DNA of 64,000 bases from Sipunculus nudus (taxonomy: Eukaryota; Annelida; Sipuncula; Golfingiida; Sipunculidae), in assembly GCA_026874595.1 (NCBI GenBank), contig CM049307.1:73260643-73324642 (forward strand). The letters run 5' to 3'. Shown here one piece after another: positions 21,896 through 24,734 of the stretch. The position numbers and the translations under genes were made by a program. The notes under the pieces are model-generated. The model saw only the letters and a program-made list of their open reading frames with translations, had not been told where the DNA came from and did no database searches. Position 1 is the first letter of the stretch. Every line of letters starts with the position of its first letter.

Positions 21896-22225
21896 CTCTA
21901 CAAGTATGAAACGGTACCGAATTAAAGAGGATCCGGTTTAACGTAAACATAACTAGGTTTATGTGCACGTGCTCCTTAACAATATTAATCTGCAGAGGCA
22001 GAAAATCTTATTCTACTGGGTGTAATCTTATATGTGTCTTGGCCGTTTGATTCTGCGCCTAGTCTTGATGTGCGTCTTTTGCTCAGGGTCACTCTGTGAT
22101 GTCTGGTCAGTAGGTGTGGTAGACGGCTTTTCTGGTCCAGCTGGCCTTTTACATCTAGATTCTTAGTACTGTGAGCATTATCAGTAAAAAAACTAATGGA
22201 CAGATTTCTTTCATATTATGCATAT

Positions 22226-22356
22226 TGTAACGAAGACAAATAAATGAGGGGAAAATCCTGGGTCGATCCGGGAGTCGAACGCAGGTCGGTGGCCACAAAG
22301 AAAAGCATGCTTCACTAGCGAGACAGTTCGGTCGGTTTTTATGTCACCCCGTAACA
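22226..22356 (-). repeat. 3' LTR-like repeat, A box deleted
   Basis: It matches 22476-22632 closely except for a net 26-bp loss that removes the A-box region. Its B box has one change (CGTTCGACTCC at 22281-22271). Confidence 0.75.
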
Positions 22357-22475
22357 CAACCCCTCTTAAGAGCATTCTGCTATCAGAACAAGACTAATTA
22401 TTCCAGGAGTCACACTTTGGTGAGCTTATTCCCTTGGCCACAAAGTTAACCGTCACGTTAGACGAGCCCCCATTT

Positions 22476-22632
22476 TGTTACGAAGGCAAATTGTTGAGGG
22501 GGAAAATCCTGGGCCGATCCGGGAGTCGAACCCAGGTCGGTGGCGAACAAGTCCGGCGTCCCAACCGCTTCGCTAGAAAAGCAAGCTTCACCAGCGAGAC
22601 AGTTCGGTCCGTTTTTATGTCACCCCGTAACA
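22476..22632 (-). repeat. 5' LTR-like repeat with A and B boxes
   Basis: On the minus strand TAGCGAAGCGG (22575-22565) fits the RNA polymerase III A-box consensus and GGTTCGACTCC (22532-22522) fits the B box exactly, 43 bases apart. The B box sits in a T-arm-like stem-loop (CTGGG/CCCGG around TTCGACT). These are the internal promoter parts of a tRNA gene or tRNA-derived SINE. The rest of the cloverleaf is not convincing, so this is not called a tRNA gene. Confidence 0.7.
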
Positions 22633-24734
22633 ATATTCATAGGTATGGGTTATTGGAAGATGACTATTTAAATTAGGGTCATGCTCTTTCACATGATGGT
22701 GACCTTGACCTTGAATATTACAATATATGATGGAAATCACACAAAATCATAAATATTTCAATAAGGGATGCATGGTTTGATTCAAAAATCAAATTGACCG
22801 ATGATCTTAAATAACTTTGTCTTCTGTCGAAGACACGTGGCGCCAACTTTGTCCTTTTCTTGTTTTTGCGCCTTCTAATACCCCATCATTACCACTTGAC
22901 AGTACTGTGAACATTATAAGTCAAAAACTAATGGACAGATTGGGCATTGCCATTCTTTTTGGATACCTCCATCTTGTACTAAAATAATTTTTTTTCATTT
23001 GGCATCCACCCGTACGTTTGCTTCAGGGTAAAATTGCTAATATCTCAGGTATGGTTCAATGTATTGGTCTGAAATTTGGCATGTGCGTCCATCTTGGAGG
23101 GTTTTCTCGTAAAGCTGACAGGTGGTGTTACCTTTCTTACCGTTTTTATAGTATAAATAAATGCCCTTTTCTCAGTAACAATTTGCCGTATTGGCCTGAA
23201 ATTGTGCTTGTCTATAGATGTTAAGTACCTCCATTTCATATTCAAGACTGGTGGCGTCATCTGCAATATTTTTGTGTGGCGTCCATCAGCACATTTGCTT
23301 TAGGTGAAAATTGCTTATATCTTAGGAGTCGTTCAATGTGTTGGTCTGAAATTTGACATGTACATCAACCTTACAGTGTTTTTCTCCTAAAGCGGACAGG
23401 TGGTGTCACCTTACTTACCGTTTCAATAGTATAATTAAATGCCCTTTTCTCAGTTACAATTTGTCGTATTGGCATGAAATGGTGTTTGTCCATAGATGTT
23501 TAAGTACCTCGATCCATCTCATATACAAGACTGGTGGCGTCATCTGCAATATTTTTGTGTGGCGTCCATCAGCACATTTGCTTTAGGTGAAAATTGCTTA
23601 TATCGTAGGAGTCGTTCAATGTTTCTGTCTGAAATTCTGCATGAACATCATCCTTAGAGAGTTCTCCCGTAAAACAGAAAGGCGGCGCTACCTACCTTAC
23701 CTTTTCATAGTATAAATTAGCGCCATTTTCTCGAGGATGATTTGCCGGATTGGCCTGAAATTGTGCTTGTCTATAGATCTTGGATACCTCTATCACATAT
23801 CCAAGACTCGTGGCGCCATCTGCAATTTTTAACGTTTGATGTCCATCCGCACATTTACTTTAGGTGAAAATAGCTCTTATCTCAGGAGTGGTTGAATGTA
23901 CTGGTCTGAAATTTGGCATGTACCTCCATTTTGGAGAGTTTTCTCGTAAAGCAGAAAGGTGACCCACCTGCCTTACCGTTTTCATAATATAAATTAATGC
24001 CCTTTTTCAGGAATAATTAACCGTATTGGCCTGAAATTGTGTTTGTCAATAGATATTGGATACCTCCATCACATACTCTAGACTGGTGGCGCTATCTGCA
24101 ATCGTTCTCGTTTGGTGTCCATACGTACATCTGCTTTAGGTGAAAATAGCTCATATCTCAGGAGTCTTTCAATGTGTTGGTCTGCAATTTGGCATGTACA
24201 TCTATCTTTGAGAGTTTTCTCATCAAGCAAACCGGTGCCGCCACCTACTTTACCATTTTAATAGTATAAATTAATCCTCTTTTTTAAGATTGATTTACCA
24301 TATTGGCCCCCATATTTGGTGAAAAATATTGTTTCACAAGTTGATGGATGGAAGAAATCATGGACGCTTGCCAAGTGTCAGTATATATGCTGCTGCATAT
24401 CGGGGCCTGTTCTTAAAGGGGGTGGGGGGGGGGGCGGGTATTAATTGTCTGGTAATACTATTGCACCTGCGGTGCCAAGAAATGTCTAGTTTATGCAGAT
24501 TCAAGGTAAAAGGTGACCTTCCAGATAATTGAAAATACACTGAGCTGAACGTGACAGAGCGTCCCTCATCCCTCCACAAAACACATCAAACCATTCATCT
24601 TTTTATCTGACCATTTATGTGAACATAGACTTGCGTGTCCGTATACACTGATTTGATAGCATAATAGAGTTTACCGTCAATTTAGAACTAATTAAAGAAA
24701 TAAAAGCAAATTTTATTGAAACAGTAGAGAGTCT

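Follow-up and report, generated by a model that had tools for sequence, protein, structure and literature searches.

We identified a large family of short, gene-less LTR retrotransposons (TRIMs) of the Helenus type, together with hybrid insertions in which TRIM and Ty3/gypsy sequences are joined at the border between LTR and primer-binding site (PBS), pointing to a likely autonomous partner. This likely Gypsy partner and the mostly one-sided form of the hybrids are what is new here, the TRIM design itself being already known. Taken as a whole, the evidence makes it quite probable that the family is a Helenus-type gene-less TRIM that carries a tRNA-type internal Pol III promoter in its LTRs and depends on a Ty3/gypsy element for its cycle.

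A complete copy of Helenus type lies at positions 22226-22632 of the window, the whole 64,000-nucleotide stretch of DNA that was analyzed, and direct reading, repeat analysis, and the copies elsewhere in the genome give it the layout LTR-interior-LTR with the minus strand as the sense strand. Its 407 bp (157+119+131) fall somewhat short of the length of a copy with two full LTRs, which is up to about 433 bp. Both LTRs begin with TG and end with CA, have the same orientation, and enclose a noncoding interior of 119 bp (22357-22475, minus strand). Read in the sense direction, on the minus strand throughout, the 157-bp 5' LTR (22476-22632) is followed by an AAA spacer (22473-22475) and the PBS TGGGGGCTCGTC (22461-22472), which we take to be of the tRNA-Pro type; a short polypurine tract (PPT), AAGAGGGG (22360-22367), stands directly upstream of the 131-bp 3' LTR (22226-22356). 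A target site duplication (TSD) of ATAT flanks the copy at 22222-22225 and 22633-22636 and, standing alone in AT-rich flanks, is weak evidence for this one copy. The initial annotation had described these same parts, as well as a distance of 43 bases from the start of the A box to the start of the B box (LTR positions 58 and 101), and direct reading bore it out on each.

The same annotation placed both promoter boxes in both LTRs, which holds for the sense 5' LTR only. There, an A-box-like motif, TAGCGAAGCGG, occupies LTR positions 58-68 (22565-22575), and a B box, GGTTCGACTCC, positions 101-111 (22522-22532), both on the minus strand; the latter is the only match of the pattern GGTTCGANTCC in the whole window. 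The A box reads TAGCG, with G at the Y of the consensus TRGCY. The A-box and B-box consensus sequences applied to this LTR are those we assume to be standard, and the boxes presumably resemble the D-arm and T-arm sequence of tRNA-Leu. The 3' LTR, 26 bp shorter overall than the 157-bp LTR, has a deletion that covers the A box, and its B box (22271-22281) has C instead of G at the first base. Near this copy we also observe a 277-bp tandem repeat of 4.6 copies (22992-24283) that begins 360 bp from the TRIM, with a period close to that of the 276-bp LTR+interior unit and no similarity to the TRIM by BLAST, and two similar stretches of ~42 bp (22165-22206 and 22901-22941) that flank the TRIM 736 bases apart and are probably pieces of another repeat.

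The family is abundant in this genome (1.43 Gb, 153 contigs). With scoring of 40 out of 2955 candidates, the 407-bp unit has at least 52 matches, an exact pattern of LTR end plus PBS has 1228 matches, which also include a Gypsy family with the spacer TAAAAT, and the TRIM-specific junction of PPT and LTR, CTCTTAAGAGGGG..TGTTACGGGG, has 734 exact matches; the reversed controls of the two patterns have 0 matches each. TSDs were read in a sample of 100 loci (L009-L108), which gave 97 elements, 89 after 8 without two usable LTRs were dropped, and 57 single copies once the 32 in arrays were set aside. A perfect 4-bp TSD is found in 33 of these 57 single copies, compared with 4-12% for mismatched flanks (by sample, 21/32, 9/18, and 3/7, with 3.8, 5.6, and 11.9% for mismatched flanks), and a 5-bp match in 1 of 57. 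Two of the 33 copies (L067 and L068) belong to one duplicated segment, 95.9% identical over 3.1 kb, and counting them once gives 32/56. The initial annotation considered so ordered a set of signals unlikely by chance; the match and pattern counts and the duplications exclude chance, and the TRIM reading, for which complete units with TSDs at many sites had been named as the check, is upheld.

An ordinary tRNA SINE mobilized by a LINE and resembling an LTR element by chance would also be short, gene-less, and equipped with tRNA-type A and B boxes. Such an origin is extremely improbable and is ruled out by the boundary and TSD data: LTR-interior-LTR units occur in large number, they possess a PBS and form arrays of LTR-interior-LTR-interior-LTR, and 4-bp TSDs lie exactly at the TG...CA boundaries. 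Some insertions are in AT repeats, yet even there the TSDs adjoin CA rather than a tail (judged on 6-10 flanking bases per copy). Because 4-bp TSDs occur at so many single copies, we conclude that integration is of the LTR type.

The initial annotation regarded a tRNA-promoter TRIM in an animal as a new SINE/LTR design. In this it was anticipated by the description in 2024 of Helenus (TRIMp3), TRIMs with a tRNA-like sequence in the LTR, from fungi, plants, and six animal phyla (Kojima 2024, PMC10886601). The available parts of that paper describe 51 Helenus families in Pteriomorphia bivalves, elements of 311-1263 bp in total length, 4-bp TSDs in animals, bivalve PBSs for tRNA-Lys, His, Ile, Pro, Glu, or Ser, and Gypsy partners inferred for animal families from PBS similarity; Gypsy-13_CGi (tRNA-Pro) is one of the Gypsy elements it names. 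The window family has TRIM size, the box motifs, a PBS, a PPT, and 4-bp TSDs; like Helenus as described there, it combines A and B boxes in the LTR with these parts and no gene, and it shares a tRNA-Pro PBS with some bivalve families, tandem arrays with one family, and a proposed Gypsy partner. Matched by this published description, it is a further family of the known Helenus kind. The difference lies in the partner: for animals, the same parts of PMC10886601 report no hybrid insertions and no evidence for a partner beyond PBS resemblance, and the hybrids are those of the present genome.

Two other TRIMs invite comparison. Biv-TRIM (Satovic et al. 2019, PMC6934838), a bivalve TRIM with tandem arrays and solo LTRs, is, by the sizes and PPT in the text consulted, a different family: its LTRs measure 202-218 bp and its interior 77-80 bp (157 and 119 bp here), its PPT is mostly GGGGAGA (AAGAGGGG here), and that text reports no clear PBS and no partner. 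Cassandra, a plant TRIM, likewise has a Pol III promoter and terminator in its LTR and forms tandem arrays; according to the portion of PMC7215508 at hand its promoter is of the 5S rRNA type, and this description sets it apart from the present family, which has no 5S match: up to an E value of 1 the Rfam 5S model finds nothing in the window copy, and at gathering score nothing in any of 12 loci.

The case for a Pol III promoter in the LTR was examined in 172 distinct LTR rows. Along the B box the most frequent base accounts for 97, 98, 96, 100, 92, 95, 98, 61, 83, 95, and 95% of rows, so that the most variable position (61%) is the N of GGTTCGANTCC, followed by a T at 83%. Conservation is 0.944 for the A box, 0.918 for the whole B box, and 0.925 for the rest of the LTR; the A box is thus slightly above the rest, which is not true of the B box. 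A run of four T (T4) at LTR positions 127-130 (22503-22506 in the window copy, minus strand) is 96-99% constant per position amid variable neighbors, which would be fitting for a Pol III terminator at the end of an R region. By the pattern used, both boxes are kept in 56 of 172 rows, and a full B box followed by TTTT is present in 86 of 172.

Neither tRNA search recognized a tRNA: the Rfam model gives no hit up to an E value of 1 in the window copy, nor one at gathering score in any of 12 other loci, and ARAGORN reports 0 tRNAs in the window and 0 in 40 loci. For this reason we limit the claim to promoter boxes and do not extend it to a tRNA. The tRNA-type Pol III promoter proposed in the initial annotation remains plausible on the base pattern of the B box, which varies mainly at its degenerate position. 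An unlikely alternative is a TRIM with an ordinary Pol II LTR, in which the boxes are remnants, without a role, of a SINE that once landed there. One or both boxes are missing in 116 of 172 rows, a deletion hotspot covers the A box, and the whole A and B boxes are about as conserved as the remaining LTR, all of which such remnants would explain; against this, the fixed positions of the B box stand at 92-100% (one at 83%) compared with 61% at the N position, and the T4 after it is conserved at 96-99%, neither of which amounts to proof. A TTTT occurs in the interior of 10 of 89 copies, compared with 33% of shuffles, a depletion that is no independent evidence because the copies are homologous.

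The initial annotation had also suggested looking for a longer gag-pol element with the same LTR. A longer element exists, with LTRs of its own, and the TRIM LTR is joined to it only in hybrid insertions. It is represented by five loci with the spacer TAAAAT (L079, L083, L091, L096, and L097), in none of which BLAST finds similarity to the LTR or interior of the TRIM. Where the start could be seen, its LTRs measure 800 (L091), 1095 (L096), and 801 bp (L097), and they have only the tips, TGTTAC...CGTAACA, in common with those of the TRIM. The PBS is shared between the two, that of the Gypsy element being a fuller tRNA-Pro PBS, and the Gypsy element also has a gag-like frame. Separate pieces match the Pfam integrase families (H2C2, rve, and p58 C-terminal), RVT_1, and RNase H; 4 of the 13 pieces scanned have no Pfam match (two of L110, one of L106, and a gag-like frame of L109). 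Integrase lies upstream of reverse transcriptase, an order that we take to be that of Gmr1-like Ty3/gypsy elements. This element is the likely autonomous partner of the TRIM, and because BLAST detects no similarity between their LTRs, the partnership rests on tips, PBS, and hybrids. Two Gypsy loci show features of their own: L083:1-936 holds ~81-bp tandem repeats upstream of the Gypsy PBS, and L110:351-782, in the stretch that separates the 5' part of the locus from its 3' part, resembles a piece of non-LTR reverse transcriptase (YADD).

Hybrids occur in both directions. Locus L109 consists of a TRIM 5' LTR, a Gypsy interior, and a Gypsy 3' LTR within a perfect TSD (ATAG), and C1:27057107 likewise has a TRIM 5' LTR and a Gypsy 3' LTR within a perfect TSD (GGCT); in each of these, a deletion took the PPT together with the start of the 3' LTR, 152 bp of it in L109 and 304 bp in C1:27057107. 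The reverse hybrid L113 has a Gypsy 5' LTR, a TRIM interior, and a TRIM 3' LTR, with flanks ATCG/AAAG and no TSD, and in a second reverse hybrid, L114, the beginning of the Gypsy LTR is gone. At C11:29304449, a TRIM LTR leads into a truncated gag and then a piece of TRIM LTR, with flanks ATGG/ATAG and no perfect TSD. A perfect TSD is therefore present in two of the four hybrids read at both ends, exactly those with a Gypsy 3' LTR. The 3' LTR was also sought at a guessed distance in three hybrid loci, two of which gave none and one only inverted Gypsy-LTR pieces. Within L109 we note a 2154-bp tandem duplication (L109:1949-6256) that is 100% identical and is either very recent or an assembly artifact; at L109:4102 and L122:460-527, Gypsy coding sequence is joined to a piece of TRIM LTR starting near position 80 of the LTR, between the boxes.

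A query across the L109 junction finds at least 38 further candidate places (40 of 3007 candidates scored), leaving out L109 and its internal duplicate as well as a partial match next to C13:42736054. We read 12 of these 38 junctions, and all 12 run on into Gypsy sequence. At the read junctions, a TRIM-like spacer is seen in L132 and in C7:31539182 (two A), and the Gypsy spacer or variants of it, which are commoner, in L109, L127-L131, L133, and L134. By length alone, 11 of the 15 exact 5' junctions described below are of 33, as expected if the Gypsy PBS extension comes after a TRIM spacer. Hybrid junctions involve the two TRIM U5 subtypes and the two Gypsy PBS subtypes alike, so several independent events are needed to explain them.

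Counts of exact junctions reveal an asymmetry between the two ends. At the 3' end, the Gypsy PPT is followed by the Gypsy LTR in 419 cases and by the TRIM LTR in 2, and the TRIM PPT by the TRIM LTR in 734 cases and by the Gypsy LTR in 1, which makes hybrid 3' junctions rare (3/1156). At the 5' end, 246 junctions join Gypsy LTR and Gypsy interior, and 15 join the TRIM LTR to the Gypsy PBS region; 7 of the 15 overlap places found with the L109-junction query, and 4 of the 7 were read. For 15 against 246 at the 5' end compared with 2 of 421 at the 3' end, Fisher's test gives p = 2.5e-5, and p = 0.03 if only the 7 are used. All of these counts are of exact patterns, in which decayed junctions are missed at the 5' and 3' ends alike.

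The asymmetry bears on what the hybrids are. They could belong to an autonomous Gypsy lineage that took over the TRIM LTR at its two ends and propagates in that form, as the TRIM LTR piece at the other end of C11:29304449 and the junction form TAATAAAATTGGG, common to four hybrids (L128-L131) and present at two further places, might suggest. We consider this quite improbable, given that a Gypsy PPT followed by a TRIM LTR occurs exactly only twice in the genome, that the Gypsy 3' LTR is present in the two other TRIM-LTR hybrids whose 3' ends are known, and that both subtypes of TRIM U5 and of Gypsy PBS appear at the junctions. Somewhat less improbable, though still unlikely, is that the hybrids formed once the elements had integrated, through ectopic recombination or gene conversion among resident copies, in which case they would be uninformative on mobilization. 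Two of the four hybrids read at both ends (L113 and C11:29304449) have no perfect TSD, and 2 of the 12 hybrids with known left flank (L119 and L128) have a TRIM interior upstream, which looks like recombination within arrays. A perfect 4-bp TSD flanks each of the two hybrids that have a Gypsy 3' LTR, which argues against such an origin. So does the PPT-U3 border, where the two elements also have a similar purine-rich stretch and exact swaps are nevertheless just 3 of 1156, compared with 15 against 246 at the 5' end.

The cycle that we propose for the TRIM would run as follows. Pol III would start shortly before the A box of the 5' LTR, read through the weak T4 of that LTR, and stop at the T4 of the 3' LTR; with such a start and end, the stretch from A box to T4 would serve as R. 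The RNA would be packaged in particles of the Ty3/gypsy element of the same genome and primed by tRNA-Pro at the PBS common to both elements, and the resulting DNA would integrate with a 4-bp TSD. During reverse transcription, plus-strand strong-stop DNA, composed of the LTR and PBS, is transferred to the minus strand at its PBS end and gives rise to the 5' LTR. Should this transfer take place onto the other co-packaged molecule, the product would combine the interior and 3' LTR of one element with the 5' LTR of the other, and would integrate with a TSD; the model thus predicts TSDs and 5' swaps both ways, with 3' swaps being few.

The hybrids fit a transfer of strands, at the PBS common to both elements, from one co-packaged molecule to another, and do not prove it. 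The model agrees with the junction counts and with two of the four fully read hybrids; L113 conforms to it in layout and not in its TSD, and C11:29304449 in neither. In many hybrids the Gypsy spacer places the exchange at the LTR edge and not inside the PBS, and recombination of cDNA before integration or ectopic recombination after it could therefore also have produced them. Our proposal that TRIM and Gypsy nucleic acids share a particle, and that strong-stop DNA often switches between them via the PBS, leaving one-sided 5' swaps with TSDs that identify the partner, is accordingly a tentative one, with a little less than an even chance of being right.

Related events are known from other systems. 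In Triticeae, TSD-flanked hybrids have been attributed to co-packaging and template switching (Sabot and Schulman 2007, PMC1950507); in the parts of that study consulted, the complexes combine two related elements and have a third, internal LTR and similar outer LTRs, whereas here a gene-less TRIM and a dissimilar Gypsy element swap mainly the 5' LTR. Recombination of co-packaged RNAs is known for Onsen, according to the part of PMC5668417 consulted. Among the titles listed by our literature search, in which subscription papers were mostly outside the scope, none reports a one-sided swap signature for a TRIM and its partner, and by title none besides Kojima 2024 is on Helenus or TRIMp3.

The hybrids bear on a question that PMC10886601, in the parts available, calls unknown, namely how a TRIM depends on an autonomous element with which it has no common LTR. 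If one-sided 5' swaps with TSDs hold in number, they would be direct evidence of co-packaging, and the signature would find the autonomous partner of a TRIM from the genome alone, even where the two have no other likeness in LTR or interior. Genomes that contain orphan TRIMs, such as Cassandra and other Helenus families, could all be screened for it. The two LTRs of one TRIM may then derive from different templates, which would call for caution in LTR-based dating.

Deletions and sequence variation within the LTRs were examined separately. LTR positions 30-100 are a deletion hotspot, with 57 deletions of at least 8 bp in 172 rows (50 distinct intervals), and cover a predicted hairpin that includes the A box (z of -3.0 for the RNA fold; the DNA fold, at z -0.78, is not significant). 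A rule by which deletions hit the 3' LTR only, suggested by set A (32 deletions of at least 8 bp, all 32 in 3' LTRs and none in 5' LTRs), was rejected: the pattern arises because the 3' LTR of the query itself carries a deletion, and in sets B and C, with copies found by interior or PBS pattern, there are 14 deletions in 37 distinct 5' rows and 11 in 44 distinct 3' rows. We also considered whether the two LTRs of a copy may come from different templates. Among 32 TSD-flanked single copies, LTR identity is 0.903 within pairs compared with 0.881 between copies, and most diagnostic sites agree within pairs (243 concordant, with 186 expected). Clean pairs of U5 haplotypes are discordant in 6 of 17 cases, with 8.2 expected if random, and one template should not produce differing U5 haplotypes within one copy. 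Six TSD-flanked single copies (L010, L012, L013, L015, L030, and L048) carry different U5 haplotypes in their two LTRs.
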